The notes under the pieces: generated by a model | Database searches by the model: none | What the model was told of the DNA's origin: nothing | The model's input: the letters and a program-made list of their open reading frames with translations, nothing else | Position numbers and translations under genes: made by a program | Part shown: one piece after another, positions 1-8,451 of the stretch | Layout of the letters: each line of letters begins with the position of its first letter | Position numbering within the stretch: position 1 is the first letter of the stretch | NCBI GenBank assembly: GCA_019415335.1 | Contig: DXKH01000096.1 | Span: 1-8,451 of the forward strand | From: Citrobacter sp. | GTDB taxonomy: Bacteria; Pseudomonadota; Gammaproteobacteria; Enterobacterales; Enterobacteriaceae | Length of the DNA: 8,451 nt | Direction: 5' to 3'

Positions 1-638
1 ATATTTTGCTGTTCCCGCCAGGAGAGATTCATCACTACGGTCGTCATCCGGAGGCTCACGAATGGTATCACCAGTGGGTTTACTTTCGTCCGCGCGCCTA
101 CTGGCATGAATGGCTTAACTGGCCGTCGATATTTGCCAATACCGGTTTCTTTCGCCCGGATGAAGCGCACCAGCCGCATTTCAGCGACCTGTTTGGGCAA
201 ATCATTAATGCCGGACAAGGGGAAGGGCGCTATTCGGAATTGCTGGCGATAAATCTGCTTGAGCAATTGTTACTGCGGCGCATGGAAGCGATTAACGAGT
301 CGCTTCATCCGCCGATGGATAATCGGGTACGCGAGGCTTGTCAGTACATCAGCGATCACCTGGCAGACAGTAATTTTGATATCGCCAGCGTCGCACAGCA
401 TGTCTGCCTGTCGCCGTCGCGTCTGTCGCATTTGTTCCGCCAGCAGTTAGGGATTAGCGTATTAAGCTGGCGCGAGGACCAGCGCATCAGTCAGGCGAAG
501 CTGCTTTTGAGCACCACCCGGATGCCTATCGCCACAGTCGGTCGCAATGTCGGTTTTGACGATCAACTCTATTTCTCGCGAGTATTTAAAAAATGCACCG
601 GGGCCAGCCCGAGCGAGTTTAGGGCTGGATGTGAATAA
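1..638 (+). CDS. araC: AraC, arabinose-responsive transcriptional regulator (5' end missing)
   Basis: AraC activates or represses araBAD, araFGH and araE in the cytoplasm according to L-arabinose. The gene enters the window in frame (first full codon ATT at 3-5), equivalent to about residue 71 of K-12 AraC. The visible part holds the end of the cupin sensor domain, with HHY (H80-Y82) and WYHQW (W91-W95) that line the arabinose pocket, then the dimerisation helices ([14 protein letters not shown]). The DNA-binding domain carries two helix-turn-helix units, [19 protein letters not shown] and the AraC/XylS signature region ending [16 protein letters not shown]. As I recall it, K-12 AraC has 292 residues and ends GCEEKVNDVAVKLS; here a TAA directly follows GCE, giving about 281. 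The tail lies beyond the second HTH, so function is probably kept. araBAD should lie beyond the left edge. Identification is near certain; the tail comparison relies on memory. Confidence 0.97.
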
Positions 639-672
639 TAAGAAAGAAGGGGGAGTCTCTTACTTTCGTTAC

Positions 673-702
673 CTGACGTTATTTATATATGTTACGGATA
701 AT
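673..702 (+). promoter_or_regulatory. Candidate sigma-70 promoter for the cassette operon
   Basis: A -35-like CTGACG (673-678, four of six consensus bases) and a -10-like GATAAT (697-702, five of six) are separated by 18 bases. Transcription would start near 709 and leave a leader of about 150 nt before the ATG at 862. The surroundings are very AT-rich, so chance matches are likely. It is the best pair I found upstream of the fused regulator-kinase gene. The 24-base dyad at 740-763 would lie just downstream of the start point, where a repressor could block transcription. Confidence 0.35.
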
Positions 703-739
703 TAATTTTATTTTATTTGTAAACTAAATATTAATTATC

Positions 740-763
740 TTTAGGTGAATCGTTTCGCCTGAA
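740..763. promoter_or_regulatory. 24-base dyad: candidate operator or weak hairpin
   Basis: The half-sites TTTAGGTGAA (740-749) and TTCGCCTGAA (754-763) are inverted copies with two transition mismatches and a four-base centre TCGT. Over the full 24 bases, 9 of 12 symmetric positions match. It is the clearest dyad in the intergenic region and lies upstream of a gene encoding a DeoR-type DNA-binding domain, so autoregulation is a reasonable inference. As RNA it could form a 10-bp stem with two G-U pairs, followed by a U-rich stretch, so it could instead be a weak terminator for araC. It also resembles a degenerate CRP site (GGTGA-N6-TCGCC), but the match is poor. Confidence 0.4.
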
Positions 764-861
764 TAATATTTTTGTTTGTTTTTGCTTGCCTTTTTTTTTC
801 TTGATAAAAATCCCGATAACAATTTCTTTTTTAGTGATAATAAAATCAAAAAGGAAGACTT

Positions 862-2094
862 ATGTATCGGGATACCCGTCGTGAATATATTGTCCGGTTA
901 CTTCGCAACAAGGATGAGTGCAGTGTTAGCGATTTAGCTAACTATTTTTCTGTTACCAAAGAGACGATTCGGACAGATTTAGCGTGGTTGCAAAAGCGTG
1001 GTGTAGTGAGTCGTCATCATGGAGGCGTCTCATTGAAAAAACATTTAATGCAAAATGCGCTTTCGCAACAAGAGTATGTCGATATGAGTTTGCTTATCAA
1101 GCAACAACAGCAGGGTATTGGCTATTTAACCTCGCTTGATGATAAAGGACGCCGAATGGTAGGTAAAGTTTGTGTGTTAGGATCATTTAACGTCGATATT
1201 GTGGCGAAAGTGTATCGCTTCCCGAATGAAGGCGAAACGTTAGTGGCCAGGGAAACTACCATGGGGCCGGGGGGTAAAGGCGCGAATCAGGCACTAGCCG
1301 CTCATCGGGCAGGTGCGCAAATACACTTCGCCTGTAAGATTGGTCGCGATCAGTTTAATCATTTTGCCCGCAATCATATTGAGTCCATTGGTATTGGTTC
1401 ATTTACTTTTTATGAGTCTGAACTATCTACCACCGGTTGTGCGGTCATTTATGTAAATGATGAAGGTGAAAACATGATTGCTATGTCTCCAGGGGCAAAT
1501 CATGAATTAAGTGATAACGATATTATTCAACTTTCTCACTTTATAGCCGAGTCCGATGTATTCATTGTACAGATGGAAAATAATCTTGCCGCTACTCAAC
1601 TGGCATTAAAATGTGCTCAAAAAATGCAGGTGACAACGATTTTAAATCCTGCACCGTGGTCCAGTGATGTCGCCACATTATTACCTTTTGTTGATATTGT
1701 GACGCCAAATGAAACCGAAGCATCGGCGATGTCAGGTATGGTAATTGACAATATTTCTGATGCTGTGAAGGCTGCGAAGCATATTTATAATGCCGGGCAA
1801 TGTTCAGTAATTATTACGATGGGAAAACGAGGTGCATTAATTTATGACGGGCAACAATGTGCGCATATTCCGGCATTTTCGGCAGTCGCTGTAGATACAA
1901 CAGGTGCGGGTGATGCGTTTAATGGCGCGCTCGCCGCCGCACTGGCGAAGGGAGAATCACTTGTTAAAGCAGCCTGGTATGCCAGCGCTTTCGCTTCGCT
2001 GGCAGTAGAAAAAGAAGGGGCAGCCAATATGCCTGATATCTCTCTGGTGGATGCAAGAATTCAGCAGCAGAATGTTGCCATTCAGACTTTCTGA
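862..2094 (+). CDS. DeoR-type HTH regulator fused to a ribokinase-like PfkB kinase
   Basis: A 410-residue, two-part cytoplasmic protein. Residues 1 to about 60 form a DeoR-family winged helix-turn-helix, with recognition helix near VTKETIRTDL (31-40) and the family HGG turn (53-55). A linker of about 40 residues follows. From about residue 99 a complete ribokinase-like domain begins (KVCVLGSFNVD): GGKGANQA (137-144), TPNETEA, and DTTGAGDAF (345-353) with the anion hole and catalytic base D351. N110, D112, G137, E239 and D351 match remembered E. coli RbsK residues N14, D16, G41, E143 and D255 at a constant offset of 96, so the sugar site looks intact and the kinase is probably active. The usual DeoR sugar-phosphate-sensing domain is absent and the kinase takes its place. 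It may phosphorylate the pathway sugar, sense it, or both. Start ATG is supported by AAGGAAG at 851-857. It is the first gene of the cassette; the lyase gene follows after 25 bases. The architecture is clear, the substrate unknown. Confidence 0.9.
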   Translation: MYRDTRREYIVRLLRNKDECSVSDLANYFSVTKETIRTDLAWLQKRGVVSRHHGGVSLKKHLMQNALSQQEYVDMSLLIKQQQQGIGYLTSLDDKGRRMVGKVCVLGSFNVDIVAKVYRFPNEGETLVARETTMGPGGKGANQALAAHRAGAQIHFACKIGRDQFNHFARNHIESIGIGSFTFYESELSTTGCAVIYVNDEGENMIAMSPGANHELSDNDIIQLSHFIAESDVFIVQMENNLAATQLALKCAQKMQVTTILNPAPWSSDVATLLPFVDIVTPNETEASAMSGMVIDNISDAVKAAKHIYNAGQCSVIITMGKRGALIYDGQQCAHIPAFSAVAVDTTGAGDAFNGALAAALAKGESLVKAAWYASAFASLAVEKEGAANMPDISLVDARIQQQNVAIQTF

Positions 2095-2119
2095 TGTTTC
2101 ACTGAACGAAGGATGAAAT

Positions 2120-3043
2120 ATGAAAACAATTGAAGGGATTATTCCGGTAATGCTAACGCCTTTTACGGCGGATAATAAAATTGATTACCTGGGTCTTAAA
2201 CGGCTAATTGACTGGTATATCGAAAACGGTGCCGACGCGTTATTTGCCGTGTGTCAGTCCAGTGAAATGCAGTATTTAACTTTAGAAGAGCGCGTGGAGC
2301 TGGCGAGCTTTGTGGTTGAATATAGCCAACAACGAGTACCGGTTATTGCGTCCGGGCATATTTCTGATGATCTGGAACAGCAAATTCAGGAGCTCAATGC
2401 TATGGCGGCAACGGGCATTGATGCGCTGGTGTTAGTGACGAATCATCTTGATCCACATAACGAAGGTACCACGGTATTCCTCCGTACGCTTGATGCGCTA
2501 TTGATGTCATTACCCGAAAGTATGGCGCTGGGTCTGTATGAATGCCCGGCCCCGTATCGCCGCTTATTAACCGATGAGGAACTGCTTTACTGCGCACAAA
2601 GCGGGCGTTTTCAAATCTTAAAAGACGTCAGTTGTGATCTACCTACAGTGACGCGACGGGTGCAATTAACTCAGCACACGCCAATGACGATTGTTAATGC
2701 TAATGCTGCCATTGCCTGGGAGGCGATGCTTGCAGGTTCGAAAGGTTTTTGTGGCGTCTTTGCCAACTTTCATCCTGACTTGTATCACTGGCTTTGGCTT
2801 GAAGGAAAACAACACCCTGAAGAGGCAAAACAACTCGCCTGGTTTTTATCGCTGAGTGCCGTCAGTGAAAATATTGGCTATCCGAAAAATGCCAAAATAT
2901 TTCATCAGCAGCGAGGAACATTTGACTGTGTTCATTGCCGGGTAACGGCTGACGATGTGCTGAAAAAATATTGGGGGCTGGAGGTGGTGCTAAAACAAAT
3001 TGCTGATGCCGCAGATTTCCAGCGTCAACAACTCAAATATTAA
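2120..3043 (+). CDS. DapA/NanA-superfamily Schiff-base aldolase or synthase, substrate unknown
   Basis: This 307-residue protein has the length and TIM-barrel pattern of the dihydrodipicolinate synthase / N-acetylneuraminate lyase family. These cytoplasmic enzymes join or split pyruvate, or another 2-oxo acid, and an aldehyde through a lysine Schiff base. It opens with IIPVMLTPFTADNKID. The catalytic Tyr is in LYEC (Y140) and the Schiff-base Lys in LKDVS (K168); their 28-residue spacing equals that of E. coli DapA (Y133, K161). Two family positions differ. The GTTGE-type loop that binds the 2-oxo acid carboxylate is CQSSE (45-49), and the DapA arginine R138 after the Tyr aligns with P145, with R147 nearby. 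It is therefore unlikely to be true DapA or NanA and belongs to a catabolic subgroup I cannot assign. RBS AAGGA lies at 2109-2113. It sits 25 bases after the regulator-kinase and 54 bases before tctC, so it is probably co-transcribed with both. Confidence 0.88.
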   Translation: MKTIEGIIPVMLTPFTADNKIDYLGLKRLIDWYIENGADALFAVCQSSEMQYLTLEERVELASFVVEYSQQRVPVIASGHISDDLEQQIQELNAMAATGIDALVLVTNHLDPHNEGTTVFLRTLDALLMSLPESMALGLYECPAPYRRLLTDEELLYCAQSGRFQILKDVSCDLPTVTRRVQLTQHTPMTIVNANAAIAWEAMLAGSKGFCGVFANFHPDLYHWLWLEGKQHPEEAKQLAWFLSLSAVSENIGYPKNAKIFHQQRGTFDCVHCRVTADDVLKKYWGLEVVLKQIADAADFQRQQLKY

Positions 3044-3049
3044 TATCCG

Positions 3050-3063
3050 ACAGCACTTGCTGT
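3050..3063 (+). other. Small intercistronic inverted repeat
   Basis: ACAGCA (3050-3055) and TGCTGT (3058-3063) are perfect inverted copies just after the lyase stop codon; as RNA the likely fold is a 5-bp stem with a 4-base loop. It is followed by AT-rich sequence (TATTAAAAAATAATTAA) but no clean U-run, so full termination is unlikely. It could mark an mRNA processing or stability point that separates expression of the enzyme gene from the binding-protein gene. A repeat this short could also be chance. Confidence 0.3.
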
Positions 3064-3097
3064 TATTAAAAAATAATTAAGACAGGAGTCTACAAAT

Positions 3098-4051
3098 ATG
3101 AAACGTACCCTGATGAGTTGTGCTGTTGCTTCACTGCTGGTTTCAGGTTCCGCGCTGGCTGCATGGCCAGAAAAACCAATCCAAATCATTGTCCCCTGGG
3201 GCGCGGGAGGAAATACCGATACTGTTGCACGCCTGGTGGCAGAAGGGCTACAAAAAGAGTTGAAAGTGAATGTCAACGTGGTGAATCGCACGGGAGGTGC
3301 TGGGGTGGTTGGCCATGATGCCATTGCGAAAGCTAAAGCGGATGGCTATACCCTGGGAATTGCGACGGTAGAAATCACCATGATGCACCATCAGGGGATG
3401 ACGGCGTTAACGTATCAGAACTACACGCCAATTACACGGCTGGCAGTGAATCTGGGAGGCGTGCAAGTCGCAGCAAATTCGCAGTTCGAAAATATCGTCC
3501 AGATGACCGACTACATCAAGGCGAATCCAGGTAAGTTAAAAGCATCGGGTAGCGGGTTAAATTCCGGCTGGCATCTGAACTTGATAGGTATGCTCGACAG
3601 TATGGGGCTTCCGCCTTCTGCCGTGACCTGGGTGCCTTCTGAAGGTTCCAGTTCTGCACTGATGGAACTGGTTTCCGGTGGTATAGATTTTACAACGTCA
3701 TCACCAGGCGAAGCGAAAAGTATGGTCGATGCCAAAATGGTGCGTAATTTAGCGACCATGGCAGAAAAATCAGCAGGGCTTTATAAAGATCTTCCTGTAT
3801 TCCAACAAGCAACTGGCTATAAATATCATTTGGTGACATGGAATGCCTTAGTGGTTCCGGCGGGTACTCCTGAAGAGGTCTCACAAAAATTAACTGCCGC
3901 TATGCAGGCAGTGTTTGCGCAGGGGAAATTACAAGAATTCGCTACCAAACAGGGTTTCGAAGTTTACCCGCTGTATGGCAAAGAGATGACGACATTTATG
4001 GCAGATGAAGATGCCAGATACGGAAAATTAATAGCCAAAATCAAAGGTTAA
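3098..4051 (+). CDS. TctC/Bug-family periplasmic solute-binding protein of a tripartite tricarboxylate transporter
   Basis: This 317-residue protein is the periplasmic receptor that captures the solute and delivers it to the TctAB membrane complex. The N-terminus is a classic Sec signal peptide: MKR, a hydrophobic stretch and SALA, with predicted cleavage after A21 before AWPEKP. No lipobox cysteine is seen at the cleavage site, so it should be soluble. The mature start PIQIIVPWGAGGNTDTVAR (27-45) and the NRTGGAGVVG loop (63-72) are the two glycine-rich ligand loops of the Bug family, which usually hold a carboxylate; D41 is the typical acidic residue. The length is normal (about 310-330). 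Ligands in the family include citrate, tricarballylate, dicarboxylates and aromatic acids, and the sequence does not decide between them. RBS AGGAG lies at 3084-3088. tctB and tctA follow on the same strand. Confidence 0.93.
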   Translation: MKRTLMSCAVASLLVSGSALAAWPEKPIQIIVPWGAGGNTDTVARLVAEGLQKELKVNVNVVNRTGGAGVVGHDAIAKAKADGYTLGIATVEITMMHHQGMTALTYQNYTPITRLAVNLGGVQVAANSQFENIVQMTDYIKANPGKLKASGSGLNSGWHLNLIGMLDSMGLPPSAVTWVPSEGSSSALMELVSGGIDFTTSSPGEAKSMVDAKMVRNLATMAEKSAGLYKDLPVFQQATGYKYHLVTWNALVVPAGTPEEVSQKLTAAMQAVFAQGKLQEFATKQGFEVYPLYGKEMTTFMADEDARYGKLIAKIKG

Positions 4052-4059
4052 TCAGACAG

Positions 4060-4080
4060 GGCGGTGAATATATCGCCGCC
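4060..4080 (+). other. GC-rich intercistronic hairpin between tctC and tctB
   Basis: GGCGGTGA (4060-4067) and TCGCCGCC (4073-4080) form an 8-bp stem with one G-U pair and the loop ATATA. It begins 8 bases after the tctC stop. No U-run follows, so read-through into tctB is expected. Its place, directly after a binding-protein gene and before the membrane components, is typical of hairpins that protect the upstream message from 3' exonucleases and let the binding protein be made in excess. The stem covers an upstream in-frame GTG (4064), which argues against that GTG as the tctB start. Confidence 0.6.
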
Positions 4081-4087
4081 AAATTAC

Positions 4088-4092
4088 AGGGA
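4088..4092 (+). promoter_or_regulatory. Ribosome binding site that decides the tctB start
   Basis: AGGGA is placed 7 bases before the ATG at 4100. The alternative GTG at 4064 has only a weak AGG three bases before it and lies inside the GC-rich hairpin, so the ATG at 4100 is the better start. Confidence 0.6.
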
Positions 4093-4099
4093 TAGCATT

Positions 4100-4537
4100 A
4101 TGCGCATAATACCGATAACGCCGTTATTTCTGCTGATTTTTGCCATGTTTATTTTTGGCTGGAGCATAACGCAATATGGAGGCATATCGCAGTATGGCGC
4201 TGGATTTATGCCTTGCATCATCAGTGGATTGTTGTTGTTTTTAGCGGCTATTGATGTAGCGATAGATATTAAACACCGGCACCGTAACAAAGTTTCTTTA
4301 ACTTTTGATGAAGTGAAAACACTTTTACTGGTTATTACAGTGGTACTACTGTTTGTATTACTGTTAGATATTCTCGGCTTTGTGATTTGCTCATTTTTGT
4401 TGCTTTTTATTTTAATGAAAATACGAGGTGTCAGACTTTTGCATTCCGTTATCGTTTCGATATCGGCATCTCTTATTATCTGGTTCATTTTTGCCAGAGT
4501 GTTGTTGGTCGCCTTTCCTGAAGGAATCTTGTTTTAA
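4100..4537 (+). CDS. TctB-family small membrane subunit of the tripartite tricarboxylate transporter
   Basis: From ATG 4100 the protein has 145 residues, normal for TctB, the poorly conserved small inner-membrane subunit that works with TctA. Hydrophobic segments lie near residues 4-22, 36-55, 73-107 (two helices either side of a break at LLDILGF) and 114-138. A charged loop with KHRHRNK lies between the second and third. The end, LLVAFPEGILF, resembles the usual TctB ending with a Pro-x-Gly. An in-frame GTG at 4064 would add 12 polar residues (start MNISPPNYRDSI) but has a poor RBS and falls in the hairpin at 4060-4080. The stop codon overlaps the tctA RBS (AAGGA, 4536-4540), implying translational coupling. 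Assignment rests on size, hydrophobicity and position between tctC and tctA more than on motifs. Confidence 0.85.
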   Translation: MRIIPITPLFLLIFAMFIFGWSITQYGGISQYGAGFMPCIISGLLLFLAAIDVAIDIKHRHRNKVSLTFDEVKTLLLVITVVLLFVLLLDILGFVICSFLLLFILMKIRGVRLLHSVIVSISASLIIWFIFARVLLVAFPEGILF

Positions 4538-4546
4538 GGATGCAAT

Positions 4547-6034
4547 ATGGATATTTTGATTCAGGCACTAACGTATATTAATTTGAATGCCATTCTGGCC
4601 ATTATTGCTGCTACGGCCTTTGGGTTATTTGTGGGGGCCATCCCTGGATTGACCGCAACGATGGCGGTTGCACTAATGGTGCCTTTTACCTTCTTTCTTG
4701 ATCCTATTCCCGCCCTGGCATTAATGATTGCCGTTGGTGCGTCATCCATTTATGCCGGAGATATCCCCGGCGCACTTTTGCGTATACCAGGGACACCTGC
4801 TTCGGCGGCTTATGTTGCTGATTCAAATGAACTGGTCAAGCAAGGGAAGGTGAATCGCGTATTGGGACTTGGGCTGGTGAGTTCGGTCATTGGTGGCGTG
4901 ATTGGATCACTTATTTTGATGTTGGCTGCGCCTGTACTGGCGAAATTTGCCCTTAATTTTAGTTCTTATGAATACACATGGCTTTCTCTTTTAGGCTTAA
5001 CCTGCGCGACTCTGGTTGTGGGTAATCAACCACTGAAAGGCATGGTGACCTTATGTTTGGGATTATTACTGGCGTGTATCGGTTATGATCAAATATCCGG
5101 GGTTCCACGTTTTACGTTTGGTCAAATCAGCTTGTTACAAGGGGTGAACTTTATCCCGGCGATGATTGGTCTGTTCGCGATATCCGGCGCAATTGAATAT
5201 TATCGTGACAAAATTAGCCAGGTAAGTGGTGTTGTGCCACAAACGCAAACGGGGATTAATTTATTCAAGGGAATGGGGCAGGTGATTTGGTCACGAAAAT
5301 TAAATCTTGGCCGAAGTAGTATTATCGGTACGCTTATCGGAGCATTACCCGGCGCTGGAGCGGATATTGCTGCGTGGATAAGTTACGCCATTTCAAAAAA
5401 ATTCTCTCGCCAGCAGGAGTTATATGGGCATGGATCTGAGGAGGCAATTGTTGATTCCTCGAGCAGTAACAACGCCAGTCTGGCGGGGAGTTGGATCCCT
5501 TCATTAGTTTTCGGTATTCCGGGCGATTCTGCCGCTGCAATTATCATCGGCGTGCTCTATATGAAGGATATGAATCCAGGGCCGACATTATTTCTGTTCC
5601 AGGCTGATAAACTTTATGCCGTATTTATCTTGTTTCTGATCGCCAATATTGCATTACTACCGTTAGCCACAATTGCGGTCAGTTTCATCAAACGCATCAT
5701 CTGGATTGATAAAGCGATTCTGTACCCGATTATTCTGATTTTCAGTATTGTCGGTGCATTTGCTATCGATAACTCGGGTGCCTCTGTCGTTGTCATGTTG
5801 GTCATGGGGGTTCTTGGATACTGGTTACAACGTAAGGAATACCCGGTTTCGCCCATTATTCTGGGGATGATTCTTGGGCCAATGTTGGAAAAAAACTTAT
5901 TATCTTCAATGATTAAGTCTAATGGCGAATGGCTGGCGTTTGTTGAGCGCCCGGTATCTATGGCACTGGCTGTCTGTTTCTTTTTGGTTGTCGCGTTGCA
6001 AGGACGCAATATCTACCGTTCATTTAGCCGTTAA
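4547..6034 (+). CDS. TctA-family large membrane subunit of the tripartite tricarboxylate transporter
   Basis: A 495-residue polytopic inner-membrane protein, the permease that moves the solute delivered by the periplasmic receptor, driven by an ion gradient rather than ATP. The length is typical of TctA (about 500) and the chain is hydrophobic throughout, with roughly 11-12 membrane segments. Family hallmarks are all visible: GAIPGLTATMA (30-40), GDIPGALLRIPGTPAS (71-86), the second-half counterpart GALPGAGADIAAW (265-277) and FGIPGDSAA (322-330). The paired PG motifs reflect the internal two-fold repeat of the family. The frame is open across the full family length, so the gene appears functional. 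It starts 9 bases after tctB with RBS AAGGA at 4536-4540 and is the last cassette gene; an 11-bp inverted repeat follows the stop. Confidence 0.95.
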   Translation: MDILIQALTYINLNAILAIIAATAFGLFVGAIPGLTATMAVALMVPFTFFLDPIPALALMIAVGASSIYAGDIPGALLRIPGTPASAAYVADSNELVKQGKVNRVLGLGLVSSVIGGVIGSLILMLAAPVLAKFALNFSSYEYTWLSLLGLTCATLVVGNQPLKGMVTLCLGLLLACIGYDQISGVPRFTFGQISLLQGVNFIPAMIGLFAISGAIEYYRDKISQVSGVVPQTQTGINLFKGMGQVIWSRKLNLGRSSIIGTLIGALPGAGADIAAWISYAISKKFSRQQELYGHGSEEAIVDSSSSNNASLAGSWIPSLVFGIPGDSAAAIIIGVLYMKDMNPGPTLFLFQADKLYAVFILFLIANIALLPLATIAVSFIKRIIWIDKAILYPIILIFSIVGAFAIDNSGASVVVMLVMGVLGYWLQRKEYPVSPIILGMILGPMLEKNLLSSMIKSNGEWLAFVERPVSMALAVCFFLVVALQGRNIYRSFSR

Positions 6035-6045
6035 TCCGTTGTTTT

Positions 6046-6072
6046 CAGACCATCCAAGTTGTGGATGGTCTG
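6046..6072 (+). terminator. Perfect 11-bp inverted repeat at the end of the cassette operon
   Basis: CAGACCATCCA (6046-6056) and TGGATGGTCTG (6062-6072) pair perfectly around the loop AGTTG, starting 12 bases after the tctA stop. The position suits an operon end. The next bases (CCTTCCCCTAAG) are not a U-run on either strand, so this is not a textbook intrinsic terminator. It may be an mRNA 3'-end stabiliser behind Rho-dependent termination. Confidence 0.55.
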
Positions 6073-6159
6073 CCTTCCCCTAAGTAAAATCCTGCGTGAC
6101 TGCTAAATTTATACTCTAAATGATTCGCGTTGCAGGAATATATTCATACAAAGAATAGA

Positions 6160-6188
6160 TTGACCTGAATACCACCACTTTGCACAAT
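6160..6188 (+). promoter_or_regulatory. Candidate sigma-70 promoter for yabI
   Basis: TTGACC (6160-6165, five of six -35 bases) and CACAAT (6183-6188, four of six -10 bases) are 17 bases apart. Transcription would start near 6195 and leave a leader of about 23 nt. This lies in DNA that differs from the remembered K-12 sequence upstream of yabI, so the promoter may have come with the cassette. Confidence 0.4.
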
Positions 6189-6217
6189 CCACGACGAATT
6201 CATCAACCGGGCACATT

Positions 6218-6982
6218 ATGCAAGCATTGCTGGAACACTTTATTACCCAATCCACCGTGTATTCATTGATGGCGGTAGTGTTGGTGGCCTTTCTGGAGTC
6301 GCTGGCGCTGGTCGGTTTGATTCTGCCCGGTACGGTGCTGATGGCGGGGCTGGGAGCGTTGATTGGCAGCGGTGAGTTAAGTTTCTGGTACGCCTGGCTG
6401 GCGGGGATTATTGGCTGCCTGATGGGCGACTGGATCTCCTTCTGGCTGGGCTGGCGTTTTAAAAAGCCGTTGCATCGCTGGTCATTTCTGAAGAAGAACA
6501 AAGCATTACTCGATAAAACCGAACATGCGCTGCATCAGCACAGCATGTTCACCATTCTGGTCGGTCGTTTTGTCGGCCCGACGCGTCCGCTGGTGCCAAT
6601 GGTGGCAGGGATGCTGGATCTGCCGGTGGCGAAATTTATTACGCCAAATATTATCGGCTGCCTGTTATGGCCACCGTTTTACTTCCTGCCGGGGATTCTG
6701 GCGGGTGCGGCGATCGATATTCCTGCCGGGATGCAGAGCGGTGAGTTTAAATGGTTGCTGCTGGTGACGGCGGTATTGTTGTGGGTTGGTGGCTGGCTGT
6801 GCTGGCGGTTATGGCGCAGCGGTAAAGCGACTGACCGTTTGAGTCATTATTTGTCCCGCGGTCGTTTGTTGTGGTTGACGCCGTTGATTTCTGCCATCGG
6901 CGTGGTGGCGCTGGTGGTGTTAATTCGCCACCCGTTGATGCCGGTGTATATCGATATTTTGCGTAAAGTGGTTGGGGGTTAG
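6218..6982 (+). CDS. yabI: YabI, DedA-family inner-membrane protein
   Basis: At 254 residues this matches the size and almost all of the remembered sequence of E. coli YabI. DedA proteins are inner-membrane proteins linked to membrane homeostasis, proton-motive-force maintenance and lipid translocation; E. coli has several partly redundant members. Visible hallmarks are the embedded acidic residue and PG turn in FLESLALVGLILPGTV (E27, P37-G38), GDWISFWLG (G70-D71), and the paired arginines in GRFVGPTRPLVPMVAGM (R117, R123). There are about five or six hydrophobic segments, including a C-terminal one (LTPLISAIGVVALVVLI). The RBS is weak (CCGGGC near 6208-6212), as I recall it being in K-12. 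The gene converges with thiQ across a BIME. It belongs to the conserved backbone, not to the cassette. Confidence 0.96.
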   Translation: MQALLEHFITQSTVYSLMAVVLVAFLESLALVGLILPGTVLMAGLGALIGSGELSFWYAWLAGIIGCLMGDWISFWLGWRFKKPLHRWSFLKKNKALLDKTEHALHQHSMFTILVGRFVGPTRPLVPMVAGMLDLPVAKFITPNIIGCLLWPPFYFLPGILAGAAIDIPAGMQSGEFKWLLLVTAVLLWVGGWLCWRLWRSGKATDRLSHYLSRGRLLWLTPLISAIGVVALVVLIRHPLMPVYIDILRKVVGG

Positions 6983-7002
6983 GGGATAGCCTTGTGCGGG
7001 TT

Positions 7003-7088
<86 letters not shown>

Positions 7089-7095
7089 GTGCATA

Positions 7096-7794
7096 TTAAC
7101 CTTTAATTCCCAACAGCGCCGAAGCACTCGCCTTACCGCTCAACAACTCATCGGTCTTACCCTGCCAGGCGATACGCCCGTCGGCGACCACCACCGAGCG
7201 CGTGGCGATCCGCGCCGCATCTTCCACACTGTGCGACACCATCAATAGCGTCATTTTTTGCTGTTGGCAGCTCGTGCTCACCAGCGTCAGCATCTCCTGA
7301 CGTAGCGCCGGATCGAGCGCGGAAAACGGTTCATCGAGCAATAAAATGGGCTGTTCGCGTACCAGACAACGCGCTAACGCCACGCGCTGTCGCTGACCGC
7401 CGGAAAGCTCGCCAGGTAACCGCGCCATTAAATTATCAATCCCCATCTGGTGGGCAATCGCGTGCATTTTCTTCTGCTGCGCCGCATTTAGTTTCAACCC
7501 CGGATTTAGCCCCAGCCCGATGTTCTGCGCGACCGTCAGGTGGCTGAACAGGTTGTTCTCCTGAAACAGCATTGACACCGGACGACGTGACGGTGGCGTT
7601 GTGGTGTGATCTACGCCGTCGAGAGTCAGCAAACCGCTGGCTGGCGTCAGAAAACCGGCGATCAAATTTAGCAGGGTGCTTTTACCCGCGCCGCTTGGCC
7701 CGAGGATCGCCATCTGCTCGCCGCGTTCCACCGTTAAGCTAAAACGCATCGGCAAATGGTGGTAAAGCCAGGTGATATCAGTCAGTTTTAACAT
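7096..7794 (-). CDS. thiQ: ThiQ, ATP-binding subunit of the thiamine ABC transporter
   Basis: ThiQ is the cytoplasmic ATPase that powers ThiBPQ uptake of thiamine, thiamine phosphate and thiamine diphosphate. From the start MLKLTDITW the protein has 232 residues, the K-12 length. All ABC motifs are present: Walker [10 protein letters not shown] (32-40), Q-loop Q78 in LFQEN, signature LSGGQ (130-134), Walker B LLLDEP (151-156, with E155) and switch H188 in VSHS. The ATG at 7794-7792 is preceded on the minus strand by GGGGCGA as RBS. A longer in-frame start at 7815 would add MKKYRGE and is less likely. The gene overlaps the end of thiP by 17 bases, implying translational coupling. The thiB-proximal THI-box riboswitch that controls this operon lies outside the window. 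Confidence 0.97.
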
Positions 7795-8451
7795 TTCGCC
7801 CCGGTATTTTTTCAATCACGGTAAACAGCAGAAAACAGAGCAGCAGCAGAATTAACGCGGTGACCGCGCCGTCCTGGCTGCGATAGGAGCCAATTTGCTG
7901 GTAGAGATAAAACGGCAGGGTACGGAAATCATCGTTACCGAACAATGCCACCACGCCAAAATCACCAATCGACAGCACACAAGCAAAGGCCAGCGCCTGC
8001 GCCAGTGGACGTTTCAGGGCGCGCAGCTCCACCACTTTTAAGCGTGACCAGCCTTCAATGCCCAGCGACTGACACAACATGCTGTAGCGGGCGGTGATAT
8101 CGCGCATCGGGTTTTCCAGTACTTTCAGCGCATAAGGGATTGCCATTAACGCATTGGTGAAAATCACAATGCCGTCAGCAGATTGTGGCAGGCCGATAGT
8201 GTTGTTGAGCAGTAAAAAGAAGCCCGTAGCCAGTACAATCCCCGGCATGGCGAGGATCAACATGCCGCTCATCTCCAGCGCCTGACCCGCCAGCATTTTC
8301 TGCCGTGCCCGAAGTTCGCGACTGCTCCATAGCAGCATCATGGTCAGCACTCCGCCCAATACGCCTGCCGCCAGCGCAATACGCAACGAGGTCCACAGCG
8401 CCTGCCACAGCACCGGTTGTGCCAGCACTTCCGGCAACTGGCGATTTACCC
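7778..8451 (-). CDS. thiP: ThiP, thiamine ABC transporter permease (5' end missing)
   Basis: This is the C-terminal part of the inner-membrane permease of ThiBPQ, about 223 residues of the 536 in K-12. The frame runs off the right edge; the first full codon encodes Val at 8449-8447, giving [13 protein letters not shown], so no start codon is in the window. Five hydrophobic segments are visible, including [38 protein letters not shown] and a last one in [15 protein letters not shown]. The cytoplasmic EAA-like loop that docks on ThiQ lies around [19 protein letters not shown]. This is the second half of a duplicated permease fold, as expected for the fused thiamine and iron permease family. The stop lies inside thiQ, with a 17-base overlap. 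Confidence 0.96.

Follow-up and report, generated by a model that had tools for sequence, protein, structure and literature searches.

A putative operon for the uptake and degradation of a 3-deoxy-oct-2-ulosonic acid, possibly Kdo, in Citrobacter and Escherichia coli

We analysed a stretch of 8,451 nucleotides from Citrobacter sp. (contig DXKH01000096.1 of assembly GCA_019415335.1, positions 1 to 8,451 of the forward strand; hereafter the window), in which positions 862-6034 hold five open genes, all on the + strand and separated, in order, by 25, 54, 48 and 9 nt. They encode a kinase carrying its own DNA-binding domain, a Schiff-base lyase and the three subunits of a carboxylate transporter, and may together serve the uptake and degradation of a sugar acid that frees a pentose in the cell. 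The features of the window are as follows.

3..638, + strand: 3' part of araC, left flank (Pfam AraC_binding and HTH_18; araC in the annotation of strain A42)
770..787, + strand: candidate operator of the kinase, two direct repeats with a 10-bp period (TTYYGTTTnnTTYYGYTT; pattern search)
862..2094, + strand: DeoR-type helix-turn-helix (HTH) domain (residues 6-58) fused to a ribokinase-like PfkB kinase (residues 102-390; Pfam)
2120..3043, + strand: Schiff-base lyase of the dihydrodipicolinate synthase (DHDPS) superfamily, QSSEM subfamily, with Lys168 and Tyr140
3098..4051, + strand: TctC, periplasmic substrate-binding protein (Pfam PF03401, 127.3 bits)
4100..4537, + strand: TctB, small permease subunit (start as annotated in strain A42; Pfam PF07331, 66.6 bits, on the longer frame)
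4547..6034, + strand: TctA, large permease subunit (Pfam PF01970, 427.4 bits)
6046..6072, + strand: hairpin 3' of tctA, possible transcription end (11-bp stem, z -3.16)
6218..6982, + strand: yabI, DedA family, right flank (Pfam VTT domain; strain A42 annotation)

Every Pfam assignment in the operon lies over its cut-off, including PfkB (226.4 bits) and HTH_DeoR (PF08220, 55.3 bits against a cut-off of 21) in the same protein and DHDPS (72.5 bits) in the lyase; with TctA, TctB and TctC each exceeding theirs, the tripartite tricarboxylate transporter is complete. The longest tctB frame opens at 4064, and 4100 is the start annotated in strain A42, whose sequence is identical across the whole operon. 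The hairpin has no T run and is absent from the list of predicted terminators. To the right of yabI, the rest of the window holds thiQ and part of thiP.

Both its family profile and its TIM-barrel fold place the lyase in the DHDPS/N-acetylneuraminate lyase superfamily of class I aldolases. Lys168 and Tyr140 align with Lys161/Tyr133 of DapA and Lys165/Tyr137 of NanA (each counted on its own sequence) and are invariant in 36 aligned relatives. The DapA model TIGR00674 is not reached (77.5 versus 206.15 bits), the DapA motif GTTGE reads CQSSE, and DapA Tyr106/Tyr107 are replaced by His109/Leu110; likewise, two NanA models of NCBIfam give 32.9 bits against a cut-off of 382 and 38 against 281, and NanA Asp191/Glu192, the Asp-Glu sugar-binding motif mentioned in passages of PMC4016182, become Ala196/Ala197. 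Judged by sequence, the lyase is a class I aldolase that belongs to neither the NanA nor the DapA family. Naming its substrate by the top-scoring enzyme family was rejected, as DapA, NanA and other DHDPS models all fall far under their cut-offs, and so was naming it by fold match, where the structural matches are tied among families.

Relatives of the lyase at E <= 1e-50 occur in 55 of 392 family genomes, and the matches split by identity into clade A (at least 63%, 39 places) and clade B (42-47%, 32 places). In a tree of 91 lyases, from which L116 was excluded as short, A and B together are split from 13 DapA/NanA-type rows (100/100) and B is held together (100/100); locus L130 sits on a zero-length branch outside the other A lyases, so that A is not one clade in this tree. 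The QSSEM motif is present in 48/48 A and 28/30 B sequences and in none of the 13 outgroup rows. A route resembling that of sialic acid, with a nine-carbon substrate (Kdn, N-acetylneuraminic acid or a relative), would sit well with the YhcH family proteins and BNR repeats found at some related loci; the Ala/Ala replacement of the NanA pair, the NanA scores and the pentose-type kinases described below argue against it and make it very improbable.

The best solved relative of the kinase is E. coli ribokinase RbsK, and the protein scores 298.8 bits on the ribokinase model TIGR02152, whose cut-off is 299.65. Its Asn110, Asp112, Gly138, Lys139, Asn142, Glu239 and Asp351 correspond to RbsK Asn14, Asp16, Gly42, Lys43, Asn46, Glu143 and Asp255, which we take to be the ribose-site and catalytic residues, and are invariant in 15 of 15 aligned sequences. 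Models of 2-keto-3-deoxygluconate (KDG) kinase reach 56-59 bits against cut-offs of at least 400.

To compare gene neighbourhoods, we fetched the 39 clade A places and, except for G528 and G795, the 32 clade B places, each with its flanks; these 69 were pooled with loci found earlier, including plasmid ones, and their genes were clustered; L077 duplicates L002, which leaves 47 distinct clade A loci rather than 48. A ribokinase-family kinase lies upstream of the lyase in 46 of these 47 (lyase identity of at least 60%), and 40 of the 46 paired kinases are long enough for an HTH domain, the short ones including L003, at a contig end, and L042, a broken copy in which the gene is split in two by a stretch that includes masked bases. 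The transporter varies: 20 of the 47 loci carry a major facilitator superfamily (MFS) protein, 14 an MFS protein with a YhcH family protein, 11 TctABC and two neither, one of the latter being Azospirillum L010, where a tripartite ATP-independent periplasmic (TRAP) system accompanies the ribokinase. A pairing this constant beside a changing transporter marks the kinase and lyase as the working core, and the importers, TctABC among them, as exchangeable. The original prediction had described a complete TctABC system, a Schiff-base lyase and a kinase with a DNA-binding domain in one operon, as is borne out by the five open + strand genes and their Pfam scores; of its proposed three-part set, the kinase-lyase half is conserved and the transporter is not part of the core. 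It had also called for a search for co-occurrence beyond E. coli, and the 46 of 47 pairings exclude chance association in one lineage.

Five plasmid loci at 50-60% lyase identity were kept separate. Among them, dehydrogenases and other genes take the place of the kinase in Agrobacterium L011 and Rhizobium L013. Dehydrogenase-like proteins stand beside the lyase at both L130 and L011, the latter annotated as a phosphoglycerate dehydrogenase, an arrangement that may feed the same lyase reaction in another way. These three lyases, accompanied by dehydrogenases and not by a kinase, also favour the alternative that the substrate is a sugar acid of shorter chain, a 2-keto-3-deoxy aldonate or the like, for which the enzyme is an aldolase or dehydratase, and that the kinase uses either a small aldehyde or this acid, as does the presence of YagE and KDG aldolases among the DHDPS relatives. 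We regard this as quite unlikely, given a kinase of ribokinase type that keeps the ribose site and scores so low on the KDG kinase models, and given that the scanned clade B kinase is a pentulose kinase.

The direct-repeat pattern upstream of the operon occurs only once in the window (770..787) and in none of 200 shuffles. It recurs 90-99 bp before the kinase start (once at 110) in all 41 upstream regions examined, against at most one of 41 in 500 Markov shuffles, a figure that measures conservation and is no independent test, the pattern having been drawn from the same 41 regions. This count omits L077, L041 and those clade A loci without a kinase start or the full 150 upstream bases, and adds the window. 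The repeat also lies upstream of 4 of 18 lyase-free relatives of the kinase and of 0 of 4 plasmid relatives; it occurs with and without the lyase and could be the operator of the fused HTH domain. DNA binding by this domain, and the sensing of a pentose by the protein, are inferred.

At E 1e-60 the kinase finds matches in 117 of the 392 genomes, and HTH-kinases and ribokinases extend far beyond the range of the lyase, so that kinase identity alone is no pathway marker. We chose 18 loci from the kinase matches without an adjacent lyase and scanned ten neighbour proteins with Pfam. Nucleoside hydrolases account for six of the ten (L141, L143, L144, L148, L149 and L154); the other four are an ADP-ribosylglycohydrolase (L145), a GATase1-like protein (L150) and, at L152, Dak1 with a DHDPS enzyme of another type, such as is also found at L153. 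By eye, L147, L155 and L157 resemble the scanned loci, and L140, L142 and L146 are without such an enzyme. On plasmids, L019 and L020 carry annotated nucleoside hydrolases and L017 and L018 a glutamine amidotransferase. By sequence family, then, this kinase type often stands beside enzymes that would free a pentose, usually ribose, in the cell.

The same survey turned up further arrangements. The HTH-ribokinases found with nucleoside hydrolases and transporters (the six scanned loci above, L019 and L020) are likely of a self-regulated nucleoside-ribose salvage type. At L152, HTH-kinase, TctCBA, Dak1 protein and the other-type DHDPS enzyme form another transporter-lyase-kinase combination, and at L017 and L018 (annotated), L150 (PF07090), L151 and L156 (by look) the HTH-kinase adjoins a glutamine-amidotransferase-like protein, with a hydrolase or phosphotriesterase-like protein nearby.

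The pentose-freeing neighbours back a pathway of the shape we propose and also feed an alternative of the same shape, in which the freed pentose is D-ribose or another, derived from an uncommon octulosonate or another acid that bears ribose, and the kinase is an ordinary ribokinase. Besides the nucleoside hydrolases and the ADP-ribosylglycohydrolase, the kinase score, less than one bit short of the ribokinase cut-off, speaks for it. Against it stand the fucose/arabinose-isomerase fold predicted for a protein of the sister clade and the fact that we know of no common natural 3-deoxy-octulosonate that yields ribose. We consider ribose unlikely, while giving it more weight than the other two alternatives.

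The sister clade B operons are larger, comprising an FGGY-family kinase, an isomerase-fold 'signal transduction protein', the lyase, a BNR_2 protein, TctCBA or MFS, and LacI (for example L044, L045, L046, L047 and L097-L115). Across 31 loci, the FGGY-family kinase occurs in 29, the protein with the predicted fucose/arabinose-isomerase fold in 30 and the BNR protein in 26; the one kinase scanned is a pentulose kinase. The isomerase-like protein reaches 26.8 bits on Pfam (cut-off 29.3) and an hhalign probability of 2.9, and gave no match in NCBIfam and one chance match in the PDB. Its predicted fold clearly matches fucose/arabinose isomerases, and Foldseek's own rows place the same isomerases first, with a large root-mean-square deviation. 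One clade B match (G528:C1:4073023-4073748) contains three internal stop codons and is probably a decayed gene; at L125, one genome carries lyase genes of both clades about 6 kb apart.

At least 80% of the operon is found in one place in 570 of 5,426 complete E. coli genomes, a collection biased by what gets sequenced, and all of these places are chromosomal. The araC-side flank matches 5,351 of the 5,426, so that the majority of strains carry this flank but lack the operon. The same five genes recur in the same order in Klebsiella spallanzanii and Phytobacter massiliensis, again between araC and yabI, at other genomic places in three Vibrio species, and on a Tolumonas contig whose end truncates the kinase; a set that recurs in Klebsiella, Phytobacter, Tolumonas and Vibrio is more than the accident of one lineage. 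The close lyase family is nevertheless patchy, since a class-wide sample at E 1e-80 had it in 1 of 369 genomes, that one being the nearest relative itself. A contig scan with a single query sequence gave seven loci. The lyase also occurs at 100% in one 834-kb record of the plasmid collection, and the module of kinase, lyase and YhcH lies on plasmids at L008 (Pantoea, typed as conjugative) and L009 (Salmonella). In E. coli NZ_CP051663.1 and NZ_CP010876.1 the lyase match is split in two, and an IS1 transposase is annotated between the two parts or next to them, so the gene is interrupted in some strains. The G+C content of the operon genes is 0.38-0.49, against 0.54-0.57 for araC, yabI and thiQ. 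Dating by synonymous divergence was rejected: several operon genes are saturated or not computable and the flanks are high too, so these values do not separate descent from transfer.

The kinase partners, the predicted isomerase and the kinase of clade B and the nucleoside-hydrolase neighbours together point to an aldopentose freed in the cytoplasm, and we consider it likely that such a sugar is released and phosphorylated there. An aldopentose leaving a retro-aldol lyase together with pyruvate implies a 3-deoxy-oct-2-ulosonate as substrate, of which Kdo is the abundant natural example; cleaving Kdo would give pyruvate and D-arabinose. The full account, an uptake-and-degradation operon for a 3-deoxy-oct-2-ulosonic acid and most likely for Kdo, has in our estimate somewhat less than an even chance of being right. 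TctABC would import the acid; the lyase, for which cleavage is likelier than condensation, would form a Schiff base with it at Lys168 and cleave it to pyruvate and an aldopentose, for which D-arabinose is the likeliest candidate; and the ribokinase domain would phosphorylate the pentose at C5. The housekeeping isomerases KdsD and GutQ convert D-arabinose 5-phosphate to ribulose 5-phosphate, by which route the product could be drained, or it could return to Kdo synthesis. The HTH half of the kinase would bind the upstream direct repeat and regulate its own operon in response to the pentose. The sequences themselves show the operon, the protein families, the catalytic residues, the conserved pairing and the conserved candidate operator; pyruvate and aldopentose as products, and Kdo as substrate, are inferred. 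The comparative evidence fits the outline of the original prediction (carboxylate import, a lyase step involving a 2-oxo acid, sugar phosphorylation and the kinase as regulator), and its broad substrate, a sugar acid or similar carboxylate, can be narrowed to an acid that frees an aldopentose.

According to passages of PMC4016182, NanA enzymes synthesise Kdo in vitro when given D-arabinose and pyruvate, and E. coli YhcH opens the ring of N-acetylneuraminate for its aldolase, as stated in parts of PMC8141875; YhcH at related loci would suit an ulosonic acid with a ring form.

Several observations weigh against the Kdo account. The one YhcH scanned belongs to the family and scores 116 against 160 bits on the NanQ N-acetylneuraminate anomerase model. 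Of the 55 genomes with a lyase of either clade, 14 have both, which is odd if A and B share one substrate (by hand count, 37 have A and 32 B; independent draws, with kinship ignored, would give about 3 joint genomes). L130 has no kinase and carries a TRAP-like set with its dehydrogenase-like protein, and a kinase is annotated in only one of the five plasmid loci at 50-60% identity (Burkholderia L012). In clade B, the isomerase assignment comes from a predicted fold, with sequence evidence below the cut-off, and the BNR protein is only weakly sialidase-like (best solved structure 9db6, E 1e-5). Nucleoside hydrolases beside lyase-free kinase relatives speak for ribose no less than for D-arabinose.

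Most Gram-negative bacteria carry Kdo in their outer surface, and plant pectin contains it too, yet we are aware of no pathway for its degradation that has been defined genetically. Were the Kdo account true, about one-tenth of complete E. coli genomes (570 of 5,426) could feed on or recycle Kdo, a function would be assigned to a widespread group of proteins whose only name is 'dihydrodipicolinate synthase family protein', and the fusion of a kinase with a DNA-binding domain would make a compact sensor of a sugar freed in the cell. Among the matches listed from the open-licence PMC literature, which leaves aside subscription journals, the passages returned describe neither this operon nor a Kdo catabolic pathway. 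We tentatively suggest, with a shade less confidence than the account itself, a genetically undefined Kdo-eating pathway in which a new lyase subfamily and a self-regulating HTH-kinase yield D-arabinose 5-phosphate, burnt or reused for lipopolysaccharide, and a sister operon, equipped with an isomerase, a pentulose kinase and a BNR protein, takes a different path to ribulose 5-phosphate.

Among known systems, the nan operon (NanA, NanK, NanE, NanT and YhcH/NanQ) shares with this one the import of an ulosonic acid, a Schiff-base lyase, a sugar kinase and, at some related loci, a YhcH family protein. It differs in that the lyase here lies outside the NanA family, the kinase is ribokinase-like with its own HTH domain, and the transporter is TctABC, MFS or TRAP; no NanE was recognised among the neighbours looked at. 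With TctCBA transporters the operon has all three subunits in common, in the order C-B-A, although here the set belongs to a lyase/kinase pathway and other carriers can stand in for it. The clade B operons share a QSSEM lyase and often the same kind of transporter, with an isomerase and FGGY-family kinase replacing the HTH-ribokinase, a LacI regulator and a BNR protein. Finally, the lyase-free HTH-ribokinase loci (L019, L020, L141, L144, L148 and L149) combine the same type of HTH-kinase with a transporter and a pentose-freeing enzyme, but there a nucleoside hydrolase frees the pentose, whereas in the operon described here a lyase would release it from a carboxylic acid.

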